From: Stenotrophomonas rhizophila
Lineage (GTDB): Bacteria > Pseudomonadota > Gammaproteobacteria > Xanthomonadales > Xanthomonadaceae
Reading direction: 5' to 3'
Assembly: GCF_000661955.1 (NCBI RefSeq)
Contig: NZ_CP007597.1
Coordinates: 1,357,605 to 1,421,604, forward strand
Length of the DNA: 64,000 nt
The notes beneath the pieces are model-generated. The model was not told the origin of the DNA and made no database searches. It worked only from the letters and a program-made list of their open reading frames with translations. This document shows positions 31,921-58,706 of the stretch, piece by piece. The translations under genes and the position numbers were made by a program. How positions within the stretch are numbered: the stretch's first letter is position 1; every line of letters starts with the position of its first letter.

Positions 31921-31947
31921 ACGCCCGGCACTGCCGGGCGTTTTTTT
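31921..31947 (+). terminator. Intrinsic terminator after the DUF4870 gene
   Basis: A nine-base perfect stem (ACGCCCGGC with GCCGGGCGT, loop ACT) is followed by seven T residues. It ends exactly where the composite repeat begins. Confidence 0.9.
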
Positions 31948-31985
31948 GGCTGGCATCTCCGATCGGGCCGGCCGCGCGCGTGAGG

Positions 31986-32086
31986 GCCCCGCACCCGCCG
32001 GTAGGCCCCTGGTGCAAATGTCCCCCGGCCGCGTGGCGCGGCCTCCTCCTTTATTTTGCCCAGGAGCCTACCGGCGGCTACGGGGC
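31986..32086 (+). repeat. Large palindromic element A1
   Basis: 101 bases. Outer arms of about 26 bases (GCCCCG...CCGGTAGGC.CCTGG and its complement) enclose the family core GCAAATGTCCCCCGG, an apical hairpin (GGCCGCG/CGCGGCC) and CCTCCTCCTTTATTTTGC. GCAAA pairs with TTTGC, leaving an internal loop of C-rich strands. It faces element B1 across a 44-base linker. Confidence 0.8.
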
Positions 32087-32130
32087 TCGGCTTGCGGTGC
32101 GCAGGTGGACGCGACGCTTTTGGGACGGTG

Positions 32131-32258
32131 GTCGGCGGGTCGGGTGCTGGGCCCCGATGCCCTTGGAGGCGAAATCAAGGGGGAGGGGGCGGCCGCAGGC
32201 CGACGCCGGAGGACATTCGCCGGAAAGGGTATCGGGGCCCAGCGCCCGACCCGCCGAC
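32131..32258 (-). repeat. Large palindromic element B1
   Basis: 128 bases. Its 34-base arms (GTCGGCGGGTCGGG...) are complementary except at two positions. On the minus strand the core reads GCGAATGTCCTCCGG, an apical hairpin with CGGCC TGC GGCCG, then CCCCCTCCCCCTTGATTTCGC. Compared with type A the closing pair is G-C instead of A-T (GCGAA/TTCGC against GCAAA/TTTGC), a compensating change. Confidence 0.8.
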
Positions 32259-32343
32259 AGCTGCGTCTGCAAAGGGCTAAAGCACGTTTCTGCTCGCCCC
32301 GCATAGGGGCGAAGGACCTTTTCTGTGTGGTGCTGTTTGCCGC

Positions 32344-33222
32344 TCAGTGATCGCGTTCGACCGCCAGCCGCCCCAGCGCACGCAAGGCATCGGCGCGTTC
32401 GTCGTAGCCGGCCAGGCTGTCGTGCATGCGTTGGCTGAGTGCGGCCAGTTCGGCCTTGGCGCCATCCATGCCGAGCAGGGCGGGGAAGGTCGACTTGGCC
32501 TGCGCCTCGTCCTTGCCGGCGGTCTTGCCCAGCTGTTCGGAACTGGCTTCGACGTCCAGGATGTCATCGCGCACCTGGAACGCCAGCCCCAGTGCACTGG
32601 CGAAATCATCCAGCTGCAGCAGGTCGGTCTGCGGCGCATCGCCACACAACGCGCCCATCCGCACCGCCGCGCGGATCAGCGCACCGGTCTTCAGTGCATG
32701 CATGCGCTGCAATGAAGCCAGCGGCTGCGCATGGCCGGTGGCATCGATGTCCAGCGCCTGGCCACCGCACATGCCGGCGGCGCCGGAAGCGTGGGTCAGC
32801 GCCTGCAGGCAGTGCACGCGCAACAGCGCCGGCAGCGCGGCATCGGCCAGCAGGCCGAACGCACGCGTCTGCAGCGCATCACCGGCGAGGATCGCGGTGG
32901 CTTCGTCGAAGGCGATGTGCGTAGTGGGACGGCCGCGACGCAGCGCGTCGTCGTCCATCGCCGGCAGGTCATCGTGCACCAGCGAATAGGCGTGGATCAG
33001 TTCCACCGCCATTGCCGGTGCATCCAGTGCGTGCTCGTCGGCACCGAACACCTGGCCGCTGGCATACACCAGCAGCGGGCGCATGCGCTTGCCACCGCCG
33101 AGCACCGCGTAGCGCATCGCCTGGTGCAGGCGCTGCGGTGCGTGTTCGGGAGAAGGCAGGCTGGCGTCGAGCTGGCTTTCGATGCGGTCGCGCCAACGCG
33201 CGAACGTAGGCTCAACCATCAT
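32344..33222 (-). CDS. ispA: Polyprenyl synthetase, farnesyl diphosphate synthase
   Basis: 292 residues. It condenses dimethylallyl and isopentenyl diphosphate to geranyl and farnesyl diphosphate in the cytoplasm, feeding undecaprenyl and ubiquinone synthesis. Both Asp-rich motifs are visible: DDLPAMDDD (first) and DDILD (second), with GGKRMRP upstream. The start at the double ATG 33222/33219 overlaps the end of xseB by 8-11 bases. xseB-ispA is the common pairing; the usual third gene dxs is not next. Confidence 0.94.
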
Positions 33223-33472
33223 GGCCGGGTGGATCGAAGCGTTCGGCGGTGTCGGGGCGGGCCGGGTCGCTGAGCAGGCGCACGCGCAGTTCGGCCTGTT
33301 CCAGCGCCTGCTGGCACTGGCGGTACAGGCCGACGCCGCGCTCGTAGGCGCTGAGCGATTGTTCCAGGCTCAGATCACCGGCTTCCATCTTCTCCACCAG
33401 CTGTTCCAGCTCTTCCAGCGACTGCTCGAAGTGGACGACCGGGGAGGTTTCGTTGGGGGACTTCTTGGGCAT
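33212..33472 (-). CDS. xseB: Exodeoxyribonuclease VII small subunit
   Basis: 86 residues, normal size. Several copies bind the large subunit XseA to form exonuclease VII, which degrades single-stranded DNA. The core [27 protein letters not shown] is the family pattern (key part [20 protein letters not shown]), followed by a helical tail [15 protein letters not shown] 33472 is preferred to a TTG seven codons upstream. It is cotranslated with ispA. Confidence 0.94.
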
Positions 33473-33508
33473 GGGACAAGTGTGATGCGCCAACCCAGCG
33501 GGGTCAAT

Positions 33509-34795
33509 TCACGCCGCGCCCGGGGTCCAGCGCAGCTGTGCGTGGTGTTCATCCAGCCAATGCTGCAGCGGTGCGGCGATGACCCGGTCGCCGGCCGCCA
33601 TCAGCACCGCGCCGTCGAACAACAGCGGCAGCTGGCGCCGCTGCCACGGCGGCAGCCCCCGCTGTTGCAGCAGGTCCTTGAGCGCATGGGAGTGGGTGCG
33701 CCCGGGCAACTGGATACGCTCACCGCCGCGGCGCGCGCTCACCTGCAGGGGCGTGGCCAGCTGGCTGGCGCCCAACAGCTCCAGCTGGCCGCCGTCGGGC
33801 AGCGCCAAGGGCGCACGGCCATCCCAGTGCACGCTCCAGTGCGGGGGCAGCGCCAGCGTGGCCGACAGCAGGTGCAGTTCGCTGCGCCACCGGCGGATCC
33901 GCGCGCCCTGCCAGGCGAACTGGGCGTCGGCGTCGTGTGCGGCCGGCAGCAGGTCGCGCTCGATGGCGTCCACCCCGGCGGCAGGCAGCGGCGGCAGCCC
34001 GCAGTTGCGCACCCATTGGCGCAGCAGGCGGGCACGGCGTTCGCGCGGCAGCCGCAGCAGGCGCGTGCCATCCAGCACGCCGGGGGCCAGGCTGCAGCGC
34101 CGCAGGGCGTCCTGGTCGGACACGTCCAGCAACTGCTGCGCCTGCGCGCAGAGTGCGGCACTGCGTGCGAAGGCGGCATCGGCCTGCGGCCAGCGTTGCT
34201 GCAGCAGCGGCAACACGTGCAGGCGCAGGAAATTGCGGTCGGCCTCGTCGCTGGCATTGCTGGGGTCGTCAACCCAGTGCAGCGCCTGCGACTGCGCATA
34301 GGCCAGCAGCGCGGCGCGCGGCACCTGCAGCAGCGGGCGCCACACCGTACCGGTGGCAAACGGCGCCTCGCTGCGGATTGCGGCCAGCCCATCCACCCCG
34401 GACCCGCGCAGGGCGCGCAGCAGGAAGGTTTCGGCCTGGTCGTCGCGGTGATGGGCCAGGGCCAGCTGTTCGCCCGGGCGCAGGGCGCTGGCGAACGCAT
34501 CGCGGCGGGCATGGCGCGCGGCCGCTTCCAGGCCGTGGCCGCTGTCGCGGGCCACGTCGACGCCGATCACCTGCAGGTCGATGTTCCAGGCCGTGCAGAT
34601 CGCCTGGCAATGCTGCGCCCACGCGTCGGCAGCCGGTTGCAGGCCATGGTGCACGTGCACCGCACGCAGGCCGGCATCGCGCTGCGCAGCCGACTGCGCC
34701 AGCCAATGCAGCAGCACGGTGGAATCGAGTCCACCACTGAAGCCCACCAGGACCGGGCGGGGGGCAGCGGAGAGATGGGGCAGGGGCGAGGACAT
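33509..34795 (-). CDS. tilS: tRNA(Ile)-lysidine synthase
   Basis: 428 residues. It converts cytidine 34 of tRNA-Ile(CAU) to lysidine so that it reads AUA. The ATP pyrophosphatase P-loop SGGLDS (residues 20-25) and the HHRDDQAET motif are intact, and the C-terminal recognition domain includes LKDLLQQRGLPPWQRRQLPLL. The ATG at 34795 is the first that precedes the P-loop at the usual distance; the frame stays open upstream for 103 codons that overlap the neighbouring gene region and lack family similarity. Confidence 0.94.
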   Translation of the reverse strand: MSSPLPHLSAAPRPVLVGFSGGLDSTVLLHWLAQSAAQRDAGLRAVHVHHGLQPAADAWAQHCQAICTAWNIDLQVIGVDVARDSGHGLEAAARHARRDAFASALRPGEQLALAHHRDDQAETFLLRALRGSGVDGLAAIRSEAPFATGTVWRPLLQVPRAALLAYAQSQALHWVDDPSNASDEADRNFLRLHVLPLLQQRWPQADAAFARSAALCAQAQQLLDVSDQDALRRCSLAPGVLDGTRLLRLPRERRARLLRQWVRNCGLPPLPAAGVDAIERDLLPAAHDADAQFAWQGARIRRWRSELHLLSATLALPPHWSVHWDGRAPLALPDGGQLELLGASQLATPLQVSARRGGERIQLPGRTHSHALKDLLQQRGLPPWQRRQLPLLFDGAVLMAAGDRVIAAPLQHWLDEHHAQLRWTPGAA

Positions 34796-34862
34796 CGGTT
34801 CGGGCAGGCTCAGGCAGGGAGGCAGTATCGACGCTGCGGGCCAGGCTCGCCACGCACGGCGG

Positions 34863-35423
34863 TCAGGGGGTGGTCGGTTCGGGCACGCGGATGCCCTGGC
34901 GATTGATATGGAACCAGTGGCCGCCTTCCACCGGCGTGTGGCCCTCGCCGTCGGGTGTGCCGGGGCGGCAGCCATTGCAGACCTGGGCGATGCCGTCGGC
35001 GAAGGGCCAGGCGAAATCGAACGTGGCCGGGAACGCCTGCTCCAGCGCGGCGGTGAAGTAGCCGACGCGTGGGCCGATACGGCCGCGCAGCAGGCCCTCC
35101 TCAACGTAATCCGGCCCGCTGTCCCAGGTCAGCACGGCCTGGGTGCGGCCGGTACGGGTCACGTAGTGGAAGCTGCCGGCGGCATATACCGCCGCCAGCC
35201 CGTCGGCATCGTAGGGGAGATCGGGCAGGACGCTGGCGGCGATCCGTGGCGCGCCATTGACCACCTCGCAGCCGGGCAACGCCCACAGGCCGTGTTCCTC
35301 GGTGAGCACCTGGCAGGCCGGTGCCTGGGCCAGCGCGGTGCCAGCCCAGGCCAGCCCGGCCGCCAGCAACAGCGGCCGCGCGTGGCGGCCCCTGCGGCGT
35401 GCGGCCGGCGTGCGTGCCGGCAT
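34863..35423 (-). CDS. Secreted WG-repeat-like protein
   Basis: 186 residues. A basic N-terminus and signal peptide (to about ALAQ, residue 33) direct it out of the cytoplasm. The mature part resembles WG-repeat proteins: GSFHYVTRTGRTQAVLTWDSG, a GKIGYF-like GPRVGYFTAALEQAFPATFDFAWPF (key piece FDFAWPFADGIAQVC) and a final GGHWFHINRQG. Four cysteines may form disulfides. The ATG overlaps the stop codon of the alkaline phosphatase gene by one base, so the two are cotranslated and may act together in the periplasm. The family is only a resemblance. Confidence 0.7.
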   Translation of the reverse strand: MPARTPAARRRGRHARPLLLAAGLAWAGTALAQAPACQVLTEEHGLWALPGCEVVNGAPRIAASVLPDLPYDADGLAAVYAAGSFHYVTRTGRTQAVLTWDSGPDYVEEGLLRGRIGPRVGYFTAALEQAFPATFDFAWPFADGIAQVCNGCRPGTPDGEGHTPVEGGHWFHINRQGIRVPEPTTP

Positions 35424-37132
35424 CAGTTGGCGTCGGCCTTGCGCTCGAACGCCTTCGGCGTGGGCAGGTCCACCGGCACGCCCTTGGCGTCGCATGTGCC
35501 GGCCTCGCACAGGCGCTGGCGCAGGCGCGGGGTGGCCTGCACGATCATGTGGTAGATCGTGTTCTGCTCCATGGTGCCGCGGATGGCCTTGCTGCCCGGG
35601 CCGCGTGCCCAGATGCCGACGTCTTCGCCGCCATGGGTTTCACTCTTGGTCGGCACCAGCGCTTCCTGCATGTAATCGGGGTGCTCGGTGTCCACGTGGC
35701 TCAGGTCCGGGCGACCGGCGGCCGGGTCGAAGCTGCTCGGGTTGTGCGGATACACCTTCGGGCCGGCCGGCTGCTGGTTGGTGGCGCCGGTGTAACCGGG
35801 GCCGTTGGCGTAGCTGAGCGTGGTGTAGGGCAGGCCGAGGCCGTCGCGGGCCACGTCCAGGCCGCCCACGCCGTCTTCGCCGCCCTTGTCCTTGACCTTG
35901 CCCAGGATCGGGTTGCCGCGGGCCGGGTAACCGACGAAGTTCAGGGTGTGCGAATGGTCGGCGGTGACGATGATCAGGGTGTCCTGGTCGGAGGTTGCCT
36001 CGACGGCTGCGCGCACGGCATCGGACAGGGCCACGGTATCGCTGAGGGCGCGGTACGCGTTGCCGCTGTGGTTGGCATGGTCGATGCGCGCGCCCTCGAC
36101 CATCAGCACGTAGCCTTCCTTGTGCCGGGACAGGGTGCTGATGGCAGCCTTGGTCAGCTCGGCCAGGCTGGGCTCGCCGGACGGGTCGTCCTTGCGCTCG
36201 ATCTCGTAGCGCATGTGGTCCGGCTCGAACAGGCCCAGCAGCGCCGGGGCATTGCGCGCGGCCTGCAGCTGCTTGGCGTTCCAGACATAGGCGCCCTGCG
36301 GGTGGGCCTGCTGCCATTCGGTGACCAGGCTGCGGCCGTCCAGGCGCTGGCCGACCTTGTCGTCATACTCGGGATCGCGCTCTTCCACGGTGGTGAATTC
36401 ACCGCGGCCGCCGCCCAGGGCAACCAGCGGACCACGGCCATAGCGCGCGGTGGACAGCAGCTGCTGGGCGATGTCGGTGCAGCCGGCGGCCTTGGCGGCG
36501 TCGGGCACGTCGGTGTCGTTTTCCCAGTTGCGCTCGGGCGAGTGCGCGTAGGTGGCGGCCGGGGTGGCGTGGGTCAGGCGCGCGGTGGACACGATGCCGG
36601 TGGCCATGTGCGCGCTGTCGGCCAGCTGCAGCCAGGTCAGCAGGCCCTTGTTGAGGCTGTCGGCGCAGTCGTTGCGGGTGCCGGCGCTGACGCCGATGGC
36701 GCCCATGTGGGTCTTCACGCCGGTGGTGATGGCGGTCATGGTGCCGGCCGAATCGGGGGTCTGCGAGTCGGTGTTGTAGGTCTTGCTGAATGCGGTGGCC
36801 GGGAAGCGCTCCCAGGACAGCAGGTTCTCTTCACCCGGGTTGCCGTTGCGCTGGCCTTCGAAAATGCGCGCGGCGGCGACCGTGGTGAGGCTCATTCCGT
36901 CACCCAGGAACAGGATGACATTCTTGGCCTTGCCGTCCATGGCGCCGCTGCCGGCGGCACGGGCGGCCCCGCTGCGGTACCACCACTGGGGGGTTTCACC
37001 GGCCGGGTGGGCCACGGCGGGAACATCGATGGCAACCGCGCCGGGGGCCGTGGCGGCGGGGGTACCGGTGGCGCAGGCGCCGAGCAGCAGGGTGGTGGCG
37101 ATGGCCGCCACCAGGGACGTGGAACGGGACAT
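35423..37132 (-). CDS. Alkaline phosphatase, lipoprotein form
   Basis: 569 residues. A lipoprotein signal peptide ends in LLGAC (Cys20), so the enzyme is probably tethered in the periplasm or outer membrane. The PhoA-type catalytic centre is complete: NVILFLGDGM (metal), TPDSAGT (nucleophile Ser), EGARIDHANHSGN, and TADHSHT followed by THGGEDVGIWARGPGS (metal-binding His). It releases phosphate from monoesters at alkaline pH. ATG 37132 begins the signal peptide; an earlier in-frame start at 37201 is unlikely. No Pho box is evident upstream by eye. Confidence 0.93.
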   Translation of the reverse strand: MSRSTSLVAAIATTLLLGACATGTPAATAPGAVAIDVPAVAHPAGETPQWWYRSGAARAAGSGAMDGKAKNVILFLGDGMSLTTVAAARIFEGQRNGNPGEENLLSWERFPATAFSKTYNTDSQTPDSAGTMTAITTGVKTHMGAIGVSAGTRNDCADSLNKGLLTWLQLADSAHMATGIVSTARLTHATPAATYAHSPERNWENDTDVPDAAKAAGCTDIAQQLLSTARYGRGPLVALGGGRGEFTTVEERDPEYDDKVGQRLDGRSLVTEWQQAHPQGAYVWNAKQLQAARNAPALLGLFEPDHMRYEIERKDDPSGEPSLAELTKAAISTLSRHKEGYVLMVEGARIDHANHSGNAYRALSDTVALSDAVRAAVEATSDQDTLIIVTADHSHTLNFVGYPARGNPILGKVKDKGGEDGVGGLDVARDGLGLPYTTLSYANGPGYTGATNQQPAGPKVYPHNPSSFDPAAGRPDLSHVDTEHPDYMQEALVPTKSETHGGEDVGIWARGPGSKAIRGTMEQNTIYHMIVQATPRLRQRLCEAGTCDAKGVPVDLPTPKAFERKADAN

Positions 37133-37281
37133 GGACGGGCATATCTCACAGGTGAATCGGGCGTTCATTATGCAGAACGGCGCAAGGCACGCCGATGACA
37201 CGCTGATTTTCCGTGTGCGCCTCGTTCCGCGGGCGCGGTTGGGCTAAGGTGCCTAGCTGTCGAATTCTCTCTGGAAAGCTC

Positions 37282-38610
37282 ATGAAGCTGGTTTCTGCGT
37301 GGTTGCGGATTCCGTTCTGGCAACGCGTGCTGGGCGGCTTCGTGCTGGGTGCGCTGGCCGGGTGGTTGCTGGGTCCGGCGGCCGAGGTTTGGTTCGGCCC
37401 GTTGGGCGACCTGTACGTGACGCTGATCAAGATGATCGCGGTGCCGCTGGTGTTCTTCGCGGTGATCAACGCAATCTCTTCGCTGCACGGGCAAAAGTCG
37501 GTGGCAGCCCTGGGCGGGCGCACGTTCCTGTGGTTCATCATCACCGCGGCGCTTGCGGTGTGCGTGGGGCTGGCGGTGGGCACGATCCTGCAGCCGGGCA
37601 CGGGCAACCTGAGCCTGAGCATGGACCACGGCTACACGCCGCGCGAAGTGCCCAGCGTGGTGAAGGTGCTGATGGACGTGGTGCCGTCGAACGTGTTCTA
37701 CGCGCTGACGGGCATTGGCACGCGGGTGAACGCGGCCGGTGAGACGGTGCTGGCGGCGGGGCGCGGGTCGATCCTGCCGGTGATCTTCTTCGCCGGGCTG
37801 CTGGGCTTTGCGATGGTGAAGCTGGGCGACAAGGTGGCCGAGGCGCGCAAGCTGACCGGGCAGATGAGCGACATCATGATCCAGGTGACGCGCTTCGTGC
37901 TGGAGATGACGCCGCTGGGAACCTTCGGGTTGATCGCCGGGCTGGTGGGCAGTTATGGGTTCGAGAAGCTGCTGCCGTTGGGCAACTTCGTGCTGGCGCT
38001 GTACGTGGCCTGCGCGTTCCATATCGTGGTGGTGTACGGCGGGCTGCTGCTGTCGCACGGGTTGAATCCGCTGAAGTTCTTCCGCGGGGCGGCGCCGGGG
38101 ATGCAGGTAGCCTTCGTGAGTTCGTCGAGCTTTGCGGCGATGCCGGCGGCGATGCGGTCGATCACGCACAATCTGGGCGTGAACAAGGATTACGCGTCGT
38201 TCGCGGTGCCGTTGGGCGCGAGCATCAAGATGGATGGCTGTGGTGCGATCTATCCGGCGTTGTGCGCGGTGTTCATCGCGCAGTACACGGGGGTGCCGTT
38301 GACGCCGGAGCAGTACATCGTGGTGTTGATCGCGTCGGTGCTGGGCAGTTTCGGTACGGCGGGCGTGCCGGGCACGGCGGTGGTGATGGCGACGGTGGTG
38401 TTGAGCGCGGCGAACCTGCCGTTGGAGACCATCGGGTATCTGTATGCGATCGACCGGATCCTGGACATGATGCGCACGATGACCAATGTGACCGGGCAGA
38501 TGCTGGTGCCGGTGCTGGTGGCCAAGGAGACCGGGTTGCTGGACAAGTCGGTGTACGACAATCCATCCACCAATCTGGGCGTGGACGAGTTGGAGAAACG
38601 CGCGTCCTGA
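37282..38610 (+). CDS. Dicarboxylate/amino acid:cation symporter (DAACS family)
   Basis: 442 residues with eight membrane segments and two re-entrant loops. The fingerprints are the serine-rich loop FVSSSSFAAMP, the ion/substrate site IKMDGCGAIYP (NMDGT in GltP is KMDGC here) and GTAGVPGTAVVM. It takes up glutamate, aspartate or C4-dicarboxylates with H+ or Na+ through the inner membrane; the exact substrate is not decided by sequence. GGAAAG before the ATG at 37282 serves as ribosome-binding site. It is divergent from the alkaline phosphatase gene and ends at a strong terminator. Confidence 0.92.
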   Translation: MKLVSAWLRIPFWQRVLGGFVLGALAGWLLGPAAEVWFGPLGDLYVTLIKMIAVPLVFFAVINAISSLHGQKSVAALGGRTFLWFIITAALAVCVGLAVGTILQPGTGNLSLSMDHGYTPREVPSVVKVLMDVVPSNVFYALTGIGTRVNAAGETVLAAGRGSILPVIFFAGLLGFAMVKLGDKVAEARKLTGQMSDIMIQVTRFVLEMTPLGTFGLIAGLVGSYGFEKLLPLGNFVLALYVACAFHIVVVYGGLLLSHGLNPLKFFRGAAPGMQVAFVSSSSFAAMPAAMRSITHNLGVNKDYASFAVPLGASIKMDGCGAIYPALCAVFIAQYTGVPLTPEQYIVVLIASVLGSFGTAGVPGTAVVMATVVLSAANLPLETIGYLYAIDRILDMMRTMTNVTGQMLVPVLVAKETGLLDKSVYDNPSTNLGVDELEKRAS

Positions 38611-38638
38611 GTGGTACGTTCGAAGGTGATGAGGATGG

Positions 38639-38666
38639 GCCCGCGAAAGCGGGCCTGTTTTTTTTT
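38639..38666 (+). terminator. Intrinsic terminator of the symporter gene
   Basis: Stem GCCCGC/GCGGGC with a GAAA tetraloop, followed by nine consecutive T residues after CTG. It lies 29 bases beyond the stop codon. Confidence 0.92.
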
Positions 38667-38679
38667 AGAAGCTGAAAGC

Positions 38680-38701
38680 AACTTCAACTTCAACTTCAAC
38701 T
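38680..38701. repeat. Hexanucleotide tandem repeat AACTTC
   Basis: Three full copies of AACTTC and a partial fourth in the gene-free region between the symporter terminator and the fap promoter. It is outside any gene, so length changes would not shift a reading frame. Confidence 0.75.
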
Positions 38702-38730
38702 GCTCAAAGCCGGTGTCCGAGTGTTGCTGG

Positions 38731-38922
38731 GGTGGGTCGGCATGGGTGGGTATCCGGGACACGCCGCAAGTCCCGCTCCGCGGCCCGGCCCAGCCGCTGG
38801 CGGCTGTGCGTTCGGACGCATGCGAGGCAATGCCTCGCAAGCAATGCGTCCTCACCCGTGTAGGCTCCGTCGCGCCATCCATGGCGCTCAGGGTCCCGGC
38901 TACCCACCCATGCCGACCCATC
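38731..38922. repeat. Long inverted repeat with nested palindromes
   Basis: Arms of about 30 bases (38731-38760 and 38893-38922; key block GGGTCGGCATGGGTGGGTA) are complementary at all but one or two positions and enclose about 130 bases. Inside are further self-complementary stretches: GCGAGGCA-A-TGCCTCGC and GCGCCAT-CC-ATGGCGC. It fills most of the space between the symporter and the fap regulatory region. No open frame here looks coding. It differs from the A/B elements and from SMAG palindromes. Confidence 0.65.
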
Positions 38923-39150
38923 CACACTGAGTCGGTGTGCACAGGAGAGCAAGAGTTGCACTGCAAAGGCACATGCACTTCCTTTCCCCAGTTAGCCGAA
39001 GCTCGAACGCTGGTGTCGCAATGGAGTCAGAGGATTGCCGTGCTGTTGCCTGTTGCTCTGCCCACCCACCCCAGCCCAGCTTAGGAGCACAAGGCAACCG
39101 CCGCTCTTCGCCCCCGGAGTGCGTGCGACCAACCTGACTACGCGCTGTAA

Positions 39151-39184
39151 ACGGTGTATCAGCCGGTGTAACACAGGTGATACA
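39151..39184 (+). promoter_or_regulatory. Candidate upstream activator site for the fap operon, distal
   Basis: Three related half-sites: GGTGTATCA (39151), GGTGTAACA (39163) and the inverted TGATACACC (39176-39184); the first and third are exact complements. They lie about 150-180 bases upstream of the -24/-12 promoter, the normal range for sigma54 activator sites. The binding protein is not proven. Confidence 0.5.
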
Positions 39185-39261
39185 CCCACGAAGAACCGAG
39201 CAGCGGCGGGCTTGTCGGTCGTGTGATGCGCTTGTTCAGCAGATGTTATCTCCAACGAATC

Positions 39262-39287
39262 TGTAACAACGCTGTTGCGGCGTTACA
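39262..39287 (+). promoter_or_regulatory. Candidate upstream activator site for the fap operon, proximal
   Basis: A 26-base imperfect dyad from TGTAAC to GTTACA with 11-base arms (nine of eleven complementary) around TGTT. The half-site TGTAAC also occurs within the distal site, which suggests the same protein binds both. It is centred about 65 bases upstream of the promoter. Confidence 0.5.
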
Positions 39288-39330
39288 CCCTGGGCGGCGG
39301 CGAAGGCCCGTGTTTGCTCGCGTGTGGAGT

Positions 39331-39345
39331 TGGCACGATTGCTGC
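39331..39345 (+). promoter_or_regulatory. Sigma54 (-24/-12) promoter of the fap operon
   Basis: TGGCACG-ATTG-CTGC matches the consensus TGGCACG-N4-TTGC at every position except one (C for T). The GG and GC dinucleotides have the required spacing. Transcription should begin near 39357, giving a leader of about 20 bases to fapA. A sigma54 activator gene lies at the other end of the operon. Confidence 0.85.
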
Positions 39346-39377
39346 GTTACCCCTCCGCATGTTTCGAGGAGGGCGCC

Positions 39378-39917: not shown

Positions 39918-40552
39918 ACCGCCTGCACCGCACCCTCCTGCTGGCCACCGTCATCGCATCGCCCCTGCCGCTCCACGCGCAGCAGCCCGATGACTACGCC
40001 ACCATGCTCACCTACCTCAATACCAGCCGCATCGACGGCCGCGCGCTGTCCGGCGCCGACGGTGCCATCACCGTCAACATGACCGCCGGCGACCTCAACC
40101 AGCAGGCCAACCTGCTTGGCATCGCCAACGGCACCAACGCACACATTGCCATCAACGCCCGCCAGCAACACAGCGCCAACCAGGTGCTCGGCGACGGCCC
40201 GATGGATGCCAGCGCCACCATCGGCGGACAGGCACTGAGCGGCGCCCGCGGCGTCGCCATGATCAACCAGGCCAGCGGGGCCGGCAACGCGACGCTCAAC
40301 GTCGTCACCGCCACGCTGGCGCAACAGGGCATACGCGAGTCGAACGACGAGGCCCTGGCCTCATCGGGGGCGCTCGTGTCAGCAGGGGGGCAGGCGGCCG
40401 TCACTCGCGGCCGGCCGGCCGGAACCCGCAGCGTGGCGGTGGAAGCCACCGCGCTGCAGGGCTTCGACGGCGTCCTGCAACTCAATCAGATCGCGGGATC
40501 CGGCAACGCCACCGCCAATCAACTGAGCATCTCGGTGCAGTCCACCCCGTGA
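39914..40552 (+). CDS. fapB: FapB-like minor amyloid subunit
   Basis: 212 residues. A signal peptide ends near LHAQ (residue 23). Three imperfect repeats of about 28-30 residues begin with AL-S/Q-G (residues 44-71, 107-136, 180-208) and share the pattern ALxG..G...N..aG..N...N, typical of curlin and Fap subunits where Asn/Gln ladders stack in cross-beta cores. They are separated by linkers of about 35-45 residues. FapB is regarded as the nucleator of Fap fibres. The gene overlaps fapA by four bases. No cysteine is present. Confidence 0.78.
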   Translation: MNRLHRTLLLATVIASPLPLHAQQPDDYATMLTYLNTSRIDGRALSGADGAITVNMTAGDLNQQANLLGIANGTNAHIAINARQQHSANQVLGDGPMDASATIGGQALSGARGVAMINQASGAGNATLNVVTATLAQQGIRESNDEALASSGALVSAGGQAAVTRGRPAGTRSVAVEATALQGFDGVLQLNQIAGSGNATANQLSISVQSTP

Positions 40553-40596
40553 GTAGTCACATCCACCCGATTGTCTGTGATGAGAGAGAGGGCACC

Positions 40597-42006
40597 ATGA
40601 ACACCAACATGAAACGGACCGTACTTGCGCTGGCCATTGCCGCCGCGTCTGCTTCCGCCGGCGCCAACGGCTGGGGCAACGATCGCGACAACCAGAACCA
40701 GAATGCGAACATCAACCACGTCCACAACGTGACCGAGACGCGCACCAACACCAATACCAACACCGATACGGATACCGATTCGCGTACCTGGAACCGGACC
40801 CGCAACACCACCACCAACAACAACTCCACCAGCAATACCACCGTCAACAGCAACGTCACCCGCAACCGCAACGTTACGGTGAACGAGAACAGCAACATCC
40901 AGGCTGACGAGCGCAAGGAAAAGAACAACCACGGCGTCGACGTGAACCTTGAAAAGGACATGCGCCTGAGCTCGGATGTGAACTTCTCCGGCGACCCGGA
41001 AATCACCGGCTCGATCGACCTCGATTCGGCCGCGATCGCCATCATCGACAACCGCCAGTCGATCACCAACAACAACGCCGCCAACAGCCTGGTCACCAAC
41101 AGCGCCTCGATCGCCGATGACGTCGGCGCCGATGCCTCCGGCAACCTCGGCTTCAACGTGGCAGCCGGCGACAACAACGCGCAGGACAACGCCGCCTCGC
41201 TGTCCGCGGCAGACGCCTCCTTCAGCTTCGGCATGGCCGACGCCGAAGTGTTCGTCAACCAGTACGGCGCGGGCAACACCACCCTCAACTCCGGCGTGAC
41301 CAACGCTGCGGGCCTGGGCGGCAATGCCTTCAGCGGCGCCTCGGGCAACATCGGTGCCAACGTCGCCTCGGGCAACAACAACGAGCAGAAGAATGCGCTC
41401 GCTGCCTCCGTGGCCACCAGTGCCTATGCCACCTCGAGCATCAGCTCCAACCAGGTATCCACCGGCAACACCGTTGCCAACGCCGGCTACCTGCGCTCCA
41501 TGACCGACACCGTCAACGTCAGCCTGCGTGGGCGCGTGGCCGGTGGCACGCTCGCCGTCGGCGCCGGTACCTACAGCGGCAGCGGCAATGCGTACCAGAA
41601 GGACAACTACTACCTGGATACCTGGAATGGTGAACTCGACCATCCGAGTGGCAATGCAACCGGCCACATCGACATGGACAACGAGATCCAGAATGCAACG
41701 GCCAACCCGAACCGGGAAGGCGTGGGCGGTATCGCCTTTGATACCGATGAGAGCGGCACCAGCCGGTTCGTCGAACTCGGCGTGGCCGATCTGTATGCCA
41801 GCTTGAGCGGCACCGTGTCCACCACCCGCTGGGTGAACGTGGATGCGACCAACACCGCGGCGTTGTCCGGCAGTGCGTTCTCCGGCGCCTCCGGCAACAT
41901 CGGGGTGAACGTGGCCTCCGGTACCGGCAACCTGCAGGCCAACAGTCTGGCCCTGGCAGTTGCCCAGCCGTCCACCGGGGGCGGTGGCGGCGGCACCGGC
42001 GAGTAA
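40597..42006 (+). CDS. fapC: FapC-like major amyloid subunit
   Basis: 469 residues, longer than Pseudomonas FapC as I recall it. After the signal peptide (to about SAGA) comes a strikingly Asn/Thr-rich segment (residues 31-101), then three amyloid repeats (171-205, 243-275, 426-456) with the pattern FSGASGNIG.NVASG..N.Q.N, separated by linkers of about 37 and 150 residues. The last residues are a Gly-rich tail. There is no cysteine, whereas I recall a C-terminal CxxC in Pseudomonas FapC. ATG 40597 follows a purine-rich GAGAGAGGG. Unusually low-complexity and AAC-rich compared with its neighbours. Confidence 0.8.
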   Translation: MNTNMKRTVLALAIAAASASAGANGWGNDRDNQNQNANINHVHNVTETRTNTNTNTDTDTDSRTWNRTRNTTTNNNSTSNTTVNSNVTRNRNVTVNENSNIQADERKEKNNHGVDVNLEKDMRLSSDVNFSGDPEITGSIDLDSAAIAIIDNRQSITNNNAANSLVTNSASIADDVGADASGNLGFNVAAGDNNAQDNAASLSAADASFSFGMADAEVFVNQYGAGNTTLNSGVTNAAGLGGNAFSGASGNIGANVASGNNNEQKNALAASVATSAYATSSISSNQVSTGNTVANAGYLRSMTDTVNVSLRGRVAGGTLAVGAGTYSGSGNAYQKDNYYLDTWNGELDHPSGNATGHIDMDNEIQNATANPNREGVGGIAFDTDESGTSRFVELGVADLYASLSGTVSTTRWVNVDATNTAALSGSAFSGASGNIGVNVASGTGNLQANSLALAVAQPSTGGGGGGTGE

Positions 42007-42048
42007 GTTTGTCCGTTTTCGCAAGCAGTACGCGTTGAGCGCAACAAA

Positions 42049-42118
42049 CCCGGCCATCCGCCAATGGCCGGGCCCCCGGGGGCCCCTGTCCCATTCTCCC
42101 CCTTTGGGGCAGGGGCTC
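42049..42118 (+). promoter_or_regulatory. Multi-hairpin spacer between fapC and fapD
   Basis: The 135-base gap between fapC and fapD holds three foldable units in a row: CCCGGCCAT/ATGGCCGGG (42049-42072), the perfect palindrome GCCCCCGGGGGC, and GCCCCTG...CAGGGGC around CCCCCTTTGGGG. None has a T tract. It could act as a stabilising or partly terminating element that makes fapC message more abundant than fapDEF; that is inference. Confidence 0.55.
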
Positions 42119-42141
42119 CTTCCTTATCCGGAGCCACGCCA

Positions 42142-42840
42142 ATGTTCAAGCACGCGCTGTACGGGTCGTTGTTGCTGCTGATGCTGCCGTTCGGCGCCGC
42201 GCGTGCCGGCGATGTCGGCTTCAGTGGCGTGCTGCCCAACGGCGCGGTGCTGACCCAGCGTGTGGAAAGCATGCAGGAACGGCGCTTCCGCAACGTGGTG
42301 CGGCAACACACCGATTACAGCTGTGGCGCGGCGGCCCTGGCCACGATCCTGCGATACGCCTACCACCTGGAGGCGGACGAAGGAACGGTGATCGAAGGCA
42401 TGATGGGGGTTTCGGACCCGCAACTGGTCCACCAGCGGGGGTTCTCGCTGCTGGACATCAAACGTTACGTTGAATCGATGGGCATGCGCGGACGCGGCTA
42501 CCGCGTCAACGAAGAGCGCCTGCGCTCACTGCGCGTGCCCGGTCTGGTGTTGATGGATGTGCGTGGCTTCCGCCATTTCGTGGTCCTCAAGCAGGTCCGC
42601 AACGATGTGGTGGACGTGGCCGACCCGATCCTGGGCAACCGCAGCATTCCCGTCAGCGAATTTCTGCAGGCGTGGCCGTCGCGCGCCGTGTTCATCGTGA
42701 TCGGGAGTGACTTCGATCGCAACACGGTGCTGCTGCAGCCCGGCGAACGGCCCAGTGCGCGCTCGCTGTATGCCCGGCAGGGGCCGATCACCGACGCGGA
42801 GTTGGTGGATTTCGGCTTCACCCATGCCGACTTGTTCTAG
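42142..42840 (+). CDS. fapD: FapD-like C39 peptidase
   Basis: 232 residues with a signal peptide to about ARAG (residue 23), so it acts in the periplasm. The papain-like C39 triad is visible: Cys61 in DYSCGAAALATIL, His145 in GFRHFVVLK and Asp161 in VADPILG. C39 peptidases cut leader peptides at double-Gly sites in ABC exporters; the free-standing FapD is required for Fap assembly in Pseudomonas. It begins 135 bases after fapC and is followed by fapE after eight bases, so fapDE are translated together. Confidence 0.85.
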   Translation: MFKHALYGSLLLLMLPFGAARAGDVGFSGVLPNGAVLTQRVESMQERRFRNVVRQHTDYSCGAAALATILRYAYHLEADEGTVIEGMMGVSDPQLVHQRGFSLLDIKRYVESMGMRGRGYRVNEERLRSLRVPGLVLMDVRGFRHFVVLKQVRNDVVDVADPILGNRSIPVSEFLQAWPSRAVFIVIGSDFDRNTVLLQPGERPSARSLYARQGPITDAELVDFGFTHADLF

Positions 42841-42848
42841 GAGGCACC

Positions 42849-43607
42849 ATGAATATCGCACGCTGGACGCACGGTGTATTGCTGCTGACCCTGCTGGGGG
42901 CCCTGCCGGCACACGCCGATGAAGGACGGCCCGGCAAGGGCCTCAGTGAAATCCCCGATCCCGAACTGAGCCTGATGCGCGGGCGCTACACGGTCAATGG
43001 CAGTAGCGTGGCGTGGTTCGGGGTGACCATGATCACCCAGTGGAACAGCGGCAACCAGGCCGCCACCAGCGCGCTCACCCTGGGCATGGATTTCCGTGCC
43101 GGCGGTGCGCCGAAGGTGAGCTTCACCCCGTCGGTGACGGTCACTGCCGCCGATGCGCCGCTGCCGGTCTCCACCGGGCGCAGCATCGATGCCAGCGGCC
43201 TGCAGAACGTGGCCGGGTTGACCCAGAGCATCCAGGTTGCCGGTGACGGCAACGTGGCCAGCAATACCACCCACCTCAACGTGCGCGACGGCGATGCACC
43301 CGCACCGGCGGCGCAGGGCCAGCACCTGGCCAGCCTGCAGCAGGGCGGGGTCAGCGCGGTGGCGCAACTGGACGGCAACAACGCCAAGGTGCAGCTGCAG
43401 ATCGACGGCGTCGGCGCGGTACAGCAGTGGATCCGCAGCGGCAGTGTCGGGCAGAGCATCGCCCTGGGCAGCGACGGCCAGGCCGTAAGCAATCGCATGC
43501 AGATCGATCTTGTCCGGCAATCGCTGGCCAGCAACGTCCCGCTCAGCCAGAACGTGGCCCAGGCGATGACGCTGGTGCGGGGTGTCGGCATGGGTCCCGG
43601 CCAGTAG
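42849..43607 (+). CDS. fapE: FapE-like protein
   Basis: 252 residues. A signal peptide ends near AHAD (residue 24). The mature protein has no enzyme motif; it contains two stretches similar in style to the amyloid repeats (SIDASGLQNVAGLTQSIQVAGDGNVASN and SGSVGQSIALGSDGQAVSNRM; key part Q..QVAGDGN and Q.IALGSDG) consistent with FapE, a minor component of Fap fibres or of the export machinery. Its start lies eight bases after fapD with GAGGCACC ahead of the ATG. The assignment leans on gene order. Confidence 0.72.
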   Translation: MNIARWTHGVLLLTLLGALPAHADEGRPGKGLSEIPDPELSLMRGRYTVNGSSVAWFGVTMITQWNSGNQAATSALTLGMDFRAGGAPKVSFTPSVTVTAADAPLPVSTGRSIDASGLQNVAGLTQSIQVAGDGNVASNTTHLNVRDGDAPAPAAQGQHLASLQQGGVSAVAQLDGNNAKVQLQIDGVGAVQQWIRSGSVGQSIALGSDGQAVSNRMQIDLVRQSLASNVPLSQNVAQAMTLVRGVGMGPGQ

Positions 43608-43655
43608 TCCCCGTGGCCGGGCAGGGGGAGTGACACCACAACGTGGACCAAGGCA

Positions 43656-44960
43656 ATGCATACCTCGACACGCGTAACACCGCTGGCGCTGGCGGCGCTG
43701 GCACTGATGGCCGCGGCCGGCGCGCATGCGCAGGCCGCGCCGGCCGATGAGGCCGACGTCAAGGCGCTGATCGCGCAGCTGGAAACCCTCAAGGCCAACT
43801 ACGCGCAGGAAGTGCGCCGGTTGCGCGAACTGGACATGCAGGTGCAGGCGATGCAGGCCCGGCTCACGGGCAAGACCGCGCCGGTGGCCGGTGCAGCCCC
43901 GCCACCCCCACCGCTGCCCGCCGGTACCCCGGCCGCCCCCGCCAGCGCGGACGGCTACGCCAGCAGCGCCGAAGAGGCGCAGCAGGCCAAGCAGGCCTCG
44001 CGGCGCAGCGTGGATGACGTGAAGCAACAGCAGGCGGCGTTGTTCAGCCGACGCTTCACCGTGGAAAACAGCCTCACCTACTCGCGCTATGACCGCAAGC
44101 AGGTGACGCTCAACGGCTTCCTGGCGCTGGATGCGATCTTCCTGGGCAACATCGCCATCGAGAACGTCGAGTCGGACACGCTCACCTACAACCTGGCCGC
44201 GCGCTGGGGCGTGAGCCCCCGGCTTACCCTGAACCTGGACGTGCCCTACCTGGCGCGCAAGACCGTGTTCCAGAAGGGCGGTGCCGGCGGTTCGGCCGCG
44301 GCGATCGCCCAGGAAGAGACCACCGGCAACGGCATCGGGGATGTTGGCCTGAGCGCCAACTACCGGCTGTTCGCCGAGCATGGTCGCTGGCCGGAAACGG
44401 TGCTTACCGTAGGCGCGACCGCACCCACCGGACGCGCGCCGTATGGCCTGGACTGGAAGGTGCTGGAGCGCGACGACGATGACTTCATCCGTTTCGCGGT
44501 GCCCGAACAGCAGCCCACCGGCAACGGGGTGTGGCAGGCCAACGTGGGCCTGTCGGCGGTGAAGACCGCCGACCCGGCGATCCTGTTCGCCAATATCGGC
44601 TACATCCATTCCTTCCCGCGCAGCTTCGACGACCTGGATGCCAACCCGGATACGGTCAACCCGGGCGAGGTGAAGCTGGGCGGGTCGTACTACTTCGGTG
44701 CGGGCGTGGCATTCGCCTTCAACGAGCGCACCAGCCTGAGCATTTCCTTCAGCGACAAGCTGAGCAGCCGGGCCTCCACGCGCTACCGCGATGGGCAGTG
44801 GTTCAAGGTGATCGGCAGCGACGCCAACGCTGGCACGCTGAACCTGGGCATCACTTACGCGCTGAACCGCAATACCACGCTGGTGAGCCTGCTGGGCATC
44901 GGCCTGACCCCGGACGCGCCCGACTTCACCCTCGCCTTCAAAGTGCCGTACATGCTGTGA
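43656..44960 (+). CDS. fapF: FapF-like outer-membrane amyloid secretin
   Basis: 434 residues. After the signal peptide (to about AHAQ, residue 26) comes a charged coiled coil (about 33-71: heptads with Leu/Val in AQLETLKANYAQEVRRLRELD and following), a Pro/Ala linker (72-115) and a beta barrel from about residue 118 to the end. In Pseudomonas FapF is a trimeric barrel with an N-terminal coiled-coil plug that opens to let Fap subunits out; the domain order here is the same. The gene closes the operon and converges with the sigma54 activator gene, with element A2 in between. Confidence 0.85.
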   Translation: MHTSTRVTPLALAALALMAAAGAHAQAAPADEADVKALIAQLETLKANYAQEVRRLRELDMQVQAMQARLTGKTAPVAGAAPPPPPLPAGTPAAPASADGYASSAEEAQQAKQASRRSVDDVKQQQAALFSRRFTVENSLTYSRYDRKQVTLNGFLALDAIFLGNIAIENVESDTLTYNLAARWGVSPRLTLNLDVPYLARKTVFQKGGAGGSAAAIAQEETTGNGIGDVGLSANYRLFAEHGRWPETVLTVGATAPTGRAPYGLDWKVLERDDDDFIRFAVPEQQPTGNGVWQANVGLSAVKTADPAILFANIGYIHSFPRSFDDLDANPDTVNPGEVKLGGSYYFGAGVAFAFNERTSLSISFSDKLSSRASTRYRDGQWFKVIGSDANAGTLNLGITYALNRNTTLVSLLGIGLTPDAPDFTLAFKVPYML

Positions 44961-45005
44961 GTGGCGGGGTGTGCGGCTCCGTTCGGGCGTGCCGGCAGCG
45001 TCGGG

Positions 45006-45109
45006 GCCCCTCGGCGGCCGGCAGGCCCTTGTGCAAATGTCCCCCGGCCGACGCCTGCGCGTCGGCCTCCTCCTTTATTTTGCCAAGGACCTGCCGGCCG
45101 CCAAGGGGC
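45006..45109 (+). repeat. Large palindromic element A2 (solo copy)
   Basis: 104 bases between the convergent 3' ends of fapF and the regulator gene. The arms are 26 bases with two mismatches (GCCCC..GGCGGCCGGCAGG.CCTTG), the core reads GCAAATGTCCCCCGG and CCTCCTCCTTTATTTTGC, and the apical hairpin is GGCCGACGC/GCGTCGGCC with loop CTGC. The left flank (CTCCGTTCGGGCG...AGCGT) resembles that of the composite modules. It could serve as a two-way terminator. Confidence 0.8.
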
Positions 45110-45195
45110 TCGGCTTGCAGGATGCAACGGCGCGCTCTGCTGCCGGCTGCGAAGGTCGGTGTCGTTCGGCGCGCGACAGCTGTCGGTAGATCTGC

Positions 45196-46533
45196 TCAGC
45201 GCAACTCGGGGAGGGCCAGCTGGTGTTTGCGGCAGAGTCGGTAGACCGTTACCCGTGAGACCTGCATGTCGCGGGCGCAGGCGGTGATGTTGAATTCGTT
45301 CTGGCGCAGCGCGTGCAGCAGCGCGTCGCGTTCGGCCGATCTGCGTGCGTCATGCAGCAGCCGCTGCGGCATCTCCAGCTGCGCCGGCACCAGCTCCAGG
45401 TCGGCGGCACTGATCAGTTCGCCGTCGGTGACGATCGCCGCGCGCTGGATGCGGTTGAGCAGCTCACGCACGTTGCCTGGCCAGTGGAAGCGTTCCAGGG
45501 CGCGCCTGGCATCGGCGCTGAAGCCGCGTGCGCGGGTGACGTGGCGGTCGCGGAAGCTGGCCAGGAAGTGCTGGGCCAGCAGCAGGATGTCGCTGCCGCG
45601 GTCGCGCAGTGGCGGTAGCGGCAGGCGCAGGACATTCAAGCGGTAGAACAGGTCGCGGCGGAACTGGCCGCGCTCCACCGCCTGTTCCAGGTCGACGTGG
45701 GTGGCGGCCAGCACGCGAACGTCCACCGCCAGCGGCTTGTTGCTGCCGACCCGTTCGACAGTGCCTTCCTGCAGCACGCGCAGCAGATTGGTCTGCGCAT
45801 CCAGTGGCAGGTCACCGATTTCATCGAGGAACACGGTGCCGCCGCTGGCGGTCTCGAACAGGCCCAGCCGGCGGTTGGCGGCGCCGGTGAAGGCGCCCCG
45901 TTCGTGGCCGAACAGTTCGGATTGGACCAACGCGGCCGGGATGGCGCCACAGTTGACGGCCAGGAACGGCCGGGCATGGCGCGGCGACAATGCGTGCAGG
46001 GCCTGGGCGGCCAGTTCCTTGCCGGTGCCGGTTTCGCCGGTGATCAGTACCGGCAGGTCGACCGGGGCGAATTTGCGGATGGCGCTGCGCGCGACCTGCA
46101 GGACGGGGCTGTCGCCGATGAGCTGCTGCGGTCCGTGCGTGGGCGGCTGCTTGGCATCGCCAGCCAGTTGCTGGAGGCGCTGGACGATGCGGGCCAGGTC
46201 CAGCGGCGCGGCAAAGGTTTCCACGCACACGGCCAGCAGTGCCTGCAGGGCGGGCGAGGGCGGCGGGGCGCCGGCGGGCAGGATGGCCAGCAGGGTCATG
46301 TGCCGGTGTTCGTCGAGCAGGGCCTGCAGGCGGGCCAGGTTGGCCGGCAAGGCGGTGCGCAGGTCGAGCAGGCCGACCACGTGGTCACTGCCGCGCATGC
46401 CGATGGCCACGCAGTCGTCGGTGGCGACGCCACGGACCTGCCAGCCTGCGGCCGCCAGGGCGGTGCGTTCGGCCGTCTGCGGAGACCCAAACCAGATTAC
46501 ACACCGGGCCGGAAATTCAGGGACTGCCGCCAT
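45196..46533 (-). CDS. Sigma54-dependent activator, VpsR-like
   Basis: 445 residues. The N-terminal 130 residues are a divergent receiver-like domain, resembling the front part of VpsR. An AAA+ domain follows with Walker A GETGTGKE (166-173), the sigma54-contacting GAFTGA (213-218), and Walker B VFLDEIGD. A Fis-type helix-turn-helix closes the protein (DMQVSRVTVYRLCRKH). It drives open-complex formation at -24/-12 promoters. Its gene converges with fapF, so it is the obvious candidate activator of the fap operon; in Vibrio, VpsR responds to c-di-GMP, but that property is not visible here. AAGGTG precedes the ATG. Confidence 0.88.
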   Translation of the reverse strand: MAAVPEFPARCVIWFGSPQTAERTALAAAGWQVRGVATDDCVAIGMRGSDHVVGLLDLRTALPANLARLQALLDEHRHMTLLAILPAGAPPPSPALQALLAVCVETFAAPLDLARIVQRLQQLAGDAKQPPTHGPQQLIGDSPVLQVARSAIRKFAPVDLPVLITGETGTGKELAAQALHALSPRHARPFLAVNCGAIPAALVQSELFGHERGAFTGAANRRLGLFETASGGTVFLDEIGDLPLDAQTNLLRVLQEGTVERVGSNKPLAVDVRVLAATHVDLEQAVERGQFRRDLFYRLNVLRLPLPPLRDRGSDILLLAQHFLASFRDRHVTRARGFSADARRALERFHWPGNVRELLNRIQRAAIVTDGELISAADLELVPAQLEMPQRLLHDARRSAERDALLHALRQNEFNITACARDMQVSRVTVYRLCRKHQLALPELR

Positions 46534-46758
46534 GCGTCACCTTGTAGACGAGGATCACGGGCGGAATCTGATGCTGGTCCGGTGGCCTTGGACGTGCCGC
46601 CCCACGTCCGGGTCCGCGGCCTGGACCGACGAGGCGGGCAGGCACTTGGTTTGCTGGCTGTTGCGTGTTCGACAATGAAGGACAACGCGGGTTGGGCGCG
46701 GTAGCGGCCAATAGGCGGGGTACGCAGAAACGTGCCTTGATGCTTTCCAGGCGCAGCC

Positions 46759-46886
46759 GTCGGTGGATCGGGCGCTGGGCCCCCATGCCCTTTCCGGCGA
46801 ATGTCCTCCGGCGTCGGCCTGCGGCCGCCCCCTCCCCCTTTATTTCGCCTCCAAGGGCATGGGGGCCCAGCGCCCGACCCACCGAC
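46759..46886 (+). repeat. Large palindromic element B2
   Basis: 128 bases. The 34-base arms (GTCGGTGG.TCGGGCGCTGGG...) have one mismatch. Core GCGAATGTCCTCCGG, apical CGGCC TGC GGCCG, then CCCCCTCCCCCTTTATTTCGC. Nearly the same as B1 in reverse orientation. Confidence 0.8.
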
Positions 46887-46928
46887 AGCGCCAGAAAAGC
46901 CTGGCTTCCCCTGCTTACCGCAAGCCGA

Positions 46929-47027
46929 GCCCCGTAGCGGCCGGTAGGCCCCTGGGCAAAATAAAGGAGGAGGCCGCCCCGCGGCCGGGGGACATTTGCG
47001 CCAGGGCCCTGCCGGCCGCTACGGGGC
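46929..47027 (-). repeat. Large palindromic element A3
   Basis: 99 bases, G-rich strand on top. On the minus strand the core is GCAAATGTCCCCCGG, apical hairpin GGCCGC/GCGGCC, then CCTCCTCCTTTATTTTGC. The arms run GCCCCGTAGCGGCCGG and onward with few mismatches. Confidence 0.8.
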
Positions 47028-47151
47028 CCTCACGCTCGCGACCGCCCGATCGGAGACGCCAGCCGATCCAAACGGCACCTACCCGCGTACCGTCGTGCTC
47101 ACTCTGCGACGGCCCTTGCAACAGACGCTCCTCTCAAATGGGAGAAGACCC

Positions 47152-58647: not shown

Positions 58648-58706
58648 CCCAACGCTCGCGACGCACACAACCGGTGCCTATCAAGCCTCTTCGCCAAAAG
58701 GAAGAC

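Follow-up and report, generated by a model that had tools for sequence, protein, structure and literature searches.

A probable ISL3-family miniature element carrying an independently conserved inverted hairpin pair in Stenotrophomonas rhizophila

A duplicated hairpin-bearing composite in the S. rhizophila window

We analyzed a 64,000-nt stretch of Stenotrophomonas rhizophila DNA (contig NZ_CP007597.1, positions 1,357,605–1,421,604; hereafter the window, numbered from its first letter), which carries two copies of an intergenic composite built of two hairpins, A and B, and lying beside the intrinsic terminators of host genes. Copy 1 (31948..32318, + strand) follows a gene at 31517-31894, whose terminator ends in a T-run (31941..31947, +); the sequence and a comparison with genome G002 mark this run as the left target-duplication copy, and a decayed right copy, TTTT, follows the element at 32319..32322 (+). 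Copy 2 (46711..47151, − strand) lies in the opposite orientation and adjoins its target run, the T9 (47152..47160, −) of the terminator behind the open reading frame (ORF) 47206-48045. Hairpin A of copy 1 occupies 31986..32086 (+) and presents a pyrimidine loop on the + strand, its purine-loop (wobble) strand being −; it is supported by inverted repeat I23, the fold, and the alignment and pair counts of A hairpins. A linker at 32087..32130 (+), defined by sequence, alignment and fold and showing no promoter-like site in a simple scan, separates it from hairpin B (32131..32258, +), which has its purine loop on the + strand and is supported by inverted repeat I10, the fold and a B alignment with compensatory changes. 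The corresponding hairpins of copy 2 are A at 46929..47027 (−; inverted repeat I20, fold) and B at 46756..46889 (−; inverted repeat I8, fold). Both copies fold far better than their shuffles (z = -8.0 for copy 1 and -9.7 for copy 2).

The segments 31948-32306 (+) and 46711-47064 (−) aligned over their full length, spacers included (MAFFT), and the ungapped blocks between them are I1 (180 nt, 88%), I4 (74 nt, 92%) and I5 (73 nt, 86%). This alignment bears out an earlier account made from the letters alone (the sequence-only reading), which had proposed one duplicated unit; the similarity is not confined to the palindromic arms, and further copies exist in related genomes. The same account counted only two copies, which proved far too few. 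The 19-nt loop stretch CCTCCTCCTTTATTTTGCC, allowing up to 3 mismatches, matched 7 times in the window and 0 times in 100 shuffles; genome-wide there were 65 matches, against 0 for a reversed-pattern control. Fifty-four of these 65 make up 27 composites, each with two opposite loops whose match starts are 120-127 bp apart, and the remaining 11 are single, truncated or otherwise spaced, two of them forming a pair at 58.3-58.6 kb of the window.

By-eye reading of an alignment of 30 loci gave the layout GGTTCTTCTCCCATCTGAGGGGAGCG... - arm - hairpin A - linker - hairpin B - arm - ...ATGGGCGAAGAACC, and the full element in this genome measures ~440-480 bp. The limits reported at first were therefore too narrow, and the transposon ends had been overlooked. 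Copy 2 (placed by alignment, ends and congener loci) extends from the edge of the terminator T-run inward to ~46711, has the left end GGGTCTTCTCCC and no longer carries a right terminal repeat. Copy 1 (placed by alignment, ends and empty sites in congeners) has had most of its left arm deleted and keeps the right end GGGGCGAAGGACC, so that each window copy retains one clear terminal end. Mechanical ORFs crossing both copies gave no hint of genes, though no coding test was run, and the composite had no match in plasmid and phage collections at E 1e-5.

Related hairpins occur elsewhere in the window. A solitary A-type hairpin (44997..45109, +; loop match, I24, D6, locus L013) has the same loop, with no B partner or ISL3 ends seen; it sits between convergent ORFs, and its short flanks resemble those of the composite. 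Two A-type hairpins lie inverted at 58256..58667 (arms 58256-58397 and 58526-58667; no strand assigned; loop matches, I2) with their loops 232 bp apart, and form a diverged pair of another layout, without a B hairpin. Among the other copies in this genome, L003 and L015 cleanly lack the top of hairpin B and retain a short palindrome, an apparent hairpin-driven deletion. A further copy, L058 (G000:C1:3026100-3026920), has clean T-runs on both sides and 472 N in its middle, and may exceed the others in length.

Transposon ends, target runs and a candidate ISL3 partner

The elements of this genome bear GGTTCTTC-type terminal inverted repeats and occupy A/T runs, mostly the poly-T of intrinsic terminators. 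Ends were read by eye in 31 loci (L001-L030 and L058). An end is missing from 13 of them, which leaves 18 for scoring, and 16 of the 18 have the same run on both sides: 11 are A/A, including broken runs at L004 and L016, and 5 are T/T. At L010 and L017 a run is seen just on the right, and a mixed arrangement, A at one end and T at the opposite end, does not occur among the 18. The exact length of the target duplication is not readable inside these homopolymers.

In the congeners that were compared, the orthologous sites are empty. At the copy 1 site, all 13 congeneric loci with both flanks (14 compared) have the terminator and then the next gene; in G002, only T8 and eleven bases separate the terminator from the stop codon of the following gene, and the element is absent. 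At the copy 2 site, the 230 bases read behind the orthologue are free of the element in all 15 congeneric loci, and the far flank was also found in 6 of these. A loop scan of the 15 + 15 congeneric loci fetched for the two sites detected no loop in any of them.

When one element was searched in ten congeners, its two ends alone were matched, ~1.3 kb apart. An ISL3 insertion sequence (IS) of 1308-1310 bp in these relatives starts with GGTTCTTCTCCCATCTGAGGGGAG and ends with GAAGAACC; its 406-aa protein matches DDE_Tnp_ISL3 (PF01610) at E 8e-65 to 9e-65 and the NCBIfam ISL3 transposase model NF033550 above its cut-off. The first 24 nt of the IS are identical to copy L004 of the present genome, and the other copies here with intact ends also match the IS. 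Among 23 genomes scanned, 5 IS copies were found in G019 and 2 in G005; G008, G024 and G041 gave weak, partial matches and the other 18 none. An 8-bp repeat flanks all seven IS copies, one of them with a single mismatch and one being AAATTCAA. Runs rich in A or T surround six of the seven, several of which adjoin terminator-like hairpins, and the seventh lies in AAATTCAA. This IS is probably the autonomous partner of the element, and the matching ends and target choice suggest that the elements of this genome were moved by such an ISL3 enzyme.

Taken together, the ISL3-type ends, the matching A/T runs, the empty orthologous sites and the IS with the same ends in congeners lend good support to the non-autonomous mobile unit that the sequence-only reading had offered among its options. 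By its sequence features, the window unit is an ISL3-type non-autonomous element and hence of a known kind. It resembles ISL3 ISs and their miniature inverted-repeat transposable elements (MITEs) in having the terminal inverted repeats of the congener IS, an A/T-rich target and no transposase gene in the element, and the congener IS shows an 8-bp duplication at its target. It differs from them in its conserved double-hairpin cargo, which was not found in the IS, in strongly favouring terminator poly-T, and in lacking an ISL3 transposase in the same genome. A partner transposase in the same genome is not required for membership of an ISL3 non-autonomous family.

The hairpin pair within and beyond this genome

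Stems average 29-38 pairs within 45-nt arms, plus the structured loop. In the 30 copies of hairpin A in this genome, 98.6% of 1137 cells over 38 pairs are paired, and 8 pairs show double changes (shuffled mean 1.6, 0 of 500; at most 2 when slid). For hairpin B, the 23 of 30 loci with a recognised loop have, on the purine-loop strand, G-U in 38 cells of 14 columns versus A-C in 3 cells of 3 columns. Over 375 hairpins from all sources, wobble mismatches number 642 on the purine-loop strand (G-U) versus 102 on the other strand, or 628 versus 101 without the six loop-proximal pairs. C-to-T and A-to-G changes both feed the G-U pairs (judged by eye), so cytosine deamination alone is an insufficient explanation of these pairs.

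Two loop positions covary. Among 363 readable hairpins, the states were (C,T) in 306, (T,C) in 40, (T,T) in 15, (C,G) in 2 and (C,C) in 0; since the scan pattern permitted C or T at both positions, the absence of (C,C) is not a pattern artefact. The purine-strand equivalents are G.A, A.G or A.A, never G.G, and the two positions appear to behave as in a noncanonical pair. Because wobble falls mainly on the purine-loop strand and the two loop positions covary, this strand probably works folded, as RNA or as single-stranded DNA. Taken with the strand result, the orientation of the hairpins means that a transcript coming from either direction would meet a working purine-loop hairpin as its second one.

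At a tolerance of 2 mismatches, 14 of 24 congeners contain the loop stretch; among 16 genomes from other genera of the order, one gave a single stray match. A gapped two-part loop pattern gave at least 120 stretches in named genomes; the genera among the matches listed are Stenotrophomonas, Luteimonas, Lysobacter, Thermomonas, Pseudoxanthomonas, Variovorax, Rhodoferax, Hydrogenophaga, Ramlibacter, Rubrivivax and Rhizobacter, with a Rhodocyclaceae bin and others. A set of 122 loci drawn from the matches listed includes two from viral contigs and contains 72 neighbouring loop pairs; the order is +/- in 65 of these, and most gaps measure 104-110 bp (range 74-305). The recurring form is thus a pair of inverted hairpins ~106 bp apart with near-invariant loops, the loop identity being partly imposed by the pattern in pattern-found loci and less strongly selected in partner hairpins (up to 2 and up to 3 mismatches) and in BLAST-found congeners. 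A gene-bearing version of the pair was not found in the loci examined, and searches of open-access PMC text gave no name or description of it.

The pair occurs in different settings. In Luteimonas terricola, the composites have ends similar to the ISL3 type, with T- or A-runs. The Variovorax unit is ~250 bp long, has sharp limits and its own outer inverted repeats (GTTCRGGGYG), and is present in many copies in most of 61 genomes searched. At one Variovorax site, G041 and G088 carry the element and a loop is absent from each of the other 18 loci in the comparison, of which G050 and G060 retain pieces of the outer repeat. Two outer repeats stand side by side at G050:C213:3114-3137, where G041 has the full element, and look like a deletion remnant. 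Outer repeats alone, side by side, were also seen at G060:C2:166881-166904 and G060:C7:106229-106252, no more numerous than in a reversed-pattern control. Solo outer palindromes were considered as pre-existing Variovorax targets and rejected, as two of the 7 genomes have any, with 1 and 2 sites, which does not exceed that control (0 to 3 per genome). A diverged pair lies at one conserved place in G001, G005, G008 and G017, as one to three units in tandem. L069 (G008:C1:1090600-1091600) and L068 (G005), at a place conserved among several Stenotrophomonas genomes, are tandem composites of ~325-bp period whose copy count differs by genome. Records titled Bacillus subtilis SK7B5 (JAHREJ; L115, L125, L137, L173, L180, L186) carry Xanthomonadaceae-type elements, and the assembly name looks wrong. 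The sequences compared indicate that the hairpin pair exists independently of ISL3 ends across Xanthomonadaceae and Burkholderiales, usually without recognisable ISL3 ends.

Gene orientation was taken from heuristic calls with a codon-position filter. In loci L101-L220, drawn from the matches listed, the 36 classable composites lie between convergent (15), tandem (20) and divergent (1) genes, versus 46, 172 and 56 other gene pairs of those loci; for congener composites the numbers are 10, 1 and 1 versus 1, 14 and 7. Neither hairpin of either window copy runs into a T-run, the T-runs belonging to host terminators outside the element. On this reading of the sequence, the element as an intrinsic terminator, a GC hairpin followed directly by a T-run, was rejected. 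As to the neighbouring genes, ORF 47206-48045 is NlpC/P60-like by reading of its sequence. Adjacent ORFs share a 152-nt stretch at 72% (47425-47576 and 48327-48478), look NlpC/P60-like and are apparently a tandem paralogue pair.

Among known systems, the repetitive extragenic palindromes (REPs) of the GTAG and CGTC families, with the REP-associated tyrosine transposase RAYT and the higher-order forms BIME and REPIN, are likewise extragenic palindromes that occur in inverted pairs, in many dispersed copies and next to genes. The hairpins described here differ in being ~90-130 nt long, versus 20-40 bp, in lacking a GTAG or CGTC foot (alignments, by eye) and in having a near-invariant structured loop across orders; in the GTAG/CGTC families, according to PMC3733652, stems measure 5-13 bp and loops 2-20 bp. 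The RAYT domain PF01797 is present alike in high-copy and zero-copy congeners; its numbers in them do not track copy number, a RAYT link was not seen, and RAYT was set aside as a helper on this ground. At 13161-13256 of the window, three close copies of a short palindrome with GTAGAGCCGGGTTCTACCCGGC or a near form (D10) look like an ordinary GTAG-type Stenotrophomonas REP cluster. The streptococcal BOX, RUP and SPRITE repeats and other bacterial MITEs are described in part of PMC10969869 as short, non-autonomous structured repeats, some of them terminator-linked. The window element is also short, non-autonomous and strongly structured; it is set apart, without a sequence comparison, by its other hosts and by a hairpin cargo that occurs with and without transposon ends in two proteobacterial classes. 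With the bacterial structured RNAs of Rfam it shares compensatory pairs, a conserved purine-rich internal loop and an intergenic place. A search of the window with Rfam 15 at gathering score gave only tRNA and nothing on the composite. In E-value mode, five loci gave three sub-threshold hits, all to microRNA models, and 31800-32500 gave eleven sub-gathering hits; three involve microRNA models, and most of the others fall on the host terminator.

Interpretation and competing explanations

We consider it likely, at a probability of about 0.78, that the composite is a two-layer unit, an ISL3-family miniature element carrying an independently conserved inverted hairpin pair. In the outer layer, a transposase acting in trans, now found in congeners and presumably once present here, would recognize the GGTTCTTC-type ends and insert the element into A/T runs, mostly terminator poly-T, duplicating ~8 bp. 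The duplicated T-run would keep the terminator intact, so insertion should be harmless and the element could be dispersed behind genes. In the inner layer, each hairpin would be constrained on its purine-loop strand (UAAAGGAGGAGG ... CCGGGGGACAUU); the two hairpins would therefore act on opposite strands, and a transcript entering from one side or the other would reach its working hairpin second. A protein or a ribosome-related factor may bind the purine-rich internal loop once the RNA at the 3' end of a neighbouring transcript has folded. Alternatively, the internal loop may be a single-strand DNA recognition site of a mobilizing enzyme. The sequences show the ends, the target runs, the empty sites, the IS with matching ends, pair conservation, covariation and strand asymmetry; past activity of the element in this genome, its harmlessness, a binding partner and a preference for RNA over DNA are inferred.

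Several observations weigh against this reading. No PF01610 match was found in the present genome (G000), and G042, G043, G013 and G023 carry hairpin pairs yet no ISL3 transposase, so current mobilization in these genomes is impossible unless by another enzyme. Both window copies are incomplete, the left arm being largely absent from copy 1 and the right end absent from copy 2. Of 142 composites, 102 were scanned for ISL3 ends at a tolerance of 2 mismatches, the flanks of the other 40, with the G042 and G043 composites among them, being too short. Such ends stood at 13 left flanks, 9 of them in this genome, and at 18 right flanks, 11 of them in this genome, the threshold being reached by 1 of 204 shuffled flanks. 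The flanks with ISL3 ends outside this genome belong to other Xanthomonadaceae and to a record titled Bacillus subtilis SK7B5, with no Burkholderiales record. Composites of this genome show no convergent excess, with 4 convergent, 10 tandem and 1 divergent versus 3, 9 and 3 other gene pairs. Simple scans of both window copies found no promoter and no internal terminator, a result of little weight because the evident terminator at 31916-31947 escaped the same scan. In Luteimonas terricola alone the strand asymmetry is weak (32 versus 17, sign p 0.17). Throughout the counts the hairpins are related to one another in sequence, which leaves the p values non-independent. Finally, strand asymmetry and loop covariation fit RNA and folded single-stranded DNA alike. 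The structured RNA that the sequence-only reading had also named is supported as a property of the cargo by its compensatory changes, mainly one-strand wobble and covarying loop positions, which do not separate RNA from folded single-stranded DNA. For the nucleoid or transcription boundary, the remaining option of that reading, the analysis covered gene orientation.

What the cargo itself represents is graded more cautiously. We tentatively propose, at somewhat less than even odds, that the double hairpin belongs to an undescribed symmetric class of structured RNA in Beta- and Gammaproteobacteria, in which one working hairpin is present whichever side the transcript comes from, its invariant internal loop, rich in purines, is held by a noncanonical purine-purine pair, and a conserved host factor reads it. 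The pair would hitch on transposon ends, its carriers being ISL3 in Xanthomonadaceae and another agent in Variovorax. A doubtful alternative is that the pair is itself mobile in the manner of a REPIN, with the hairpins serving as single-stranded DNA ends for a transposase and the ISL3 ends gained later in some Xanthomonadaceae. Single-strand transposases recognize a strand-specific folded form, and the inverted pair with its near-fixed spacing in many genera would suit such an enzyme, as would the sharp, multicopy Variovorax unit with its own outer repeats and one occupied/empty site. This idea sits poorly with the lack of a gene-bearing version, with RAYT numbers that do not follow copy number, and with hairpins several times REP length that have no GTAG/CGTC foot. 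In addition, 20 seemingly isolated loops resolved into 15 with a decayed partner nearby, one at a contig end and 4 with none. Three wide +/- arrangements were present in the 122 loci from the matches listed, two being neighbouring composites and the third L179; L179 and also L348 enclose ORFs that resemble, by eye, ordinary chromosomal genes.

It is unlikely that the pair is simply a host-selected bidirectional 3'-UTR RNA element, that is, a stabilizer, terminator aid or protein-binding site that spreads only passively. Many composites do lie just behind stop codons, the orientation counts for L101-L220 and the congeners fit such a role, and so do the wobble asymmetry, the covariation with its coupled loop positions and the conserved position in G001, G005, G008 and G017. 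However, 10 of 24 congeners have no loop-stretch match with up to 2 mismatches, copy number and sites are highly variable, the composites of this genome lie mostly between tandem genes, and no promoter or terminator signature was seen in the weak scan; terminator targeting alone would put the ISL3-borne copies behind genes. We disfavour, as very improbable, selfish or neutral palindromes with a functionless loop, homogenized by gene conversion and replication-dependent correction. Long palindromes can be homogenized through template switching, and the clean loss of the hairpin B top in L003 and L015 would fit this account, but the loop is near-identical across orders while the stems differ, and neither the one-strand wobble bias nor the absent (C,C) state is expected from conversion.

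Under the two-layer reading, a transposon family that seemingly inserts without breaking terminators is linked to a hairpin pair with near-fixed loops across two bacterial classes. The ISL3-type non-autonomous element is of a kind already known, and the hairpin-pair cargo matches no Rfam family and was not met in the open-access text searched. The strand-specific wobble test used here may prove useful for recognizing folded-strand function in palindromic repeats of other kinds. Should a host factor bind the loop, these elements would offer a many-copy system for studying how mobile repeats become, or parasitize, RNA processing at gene ends.

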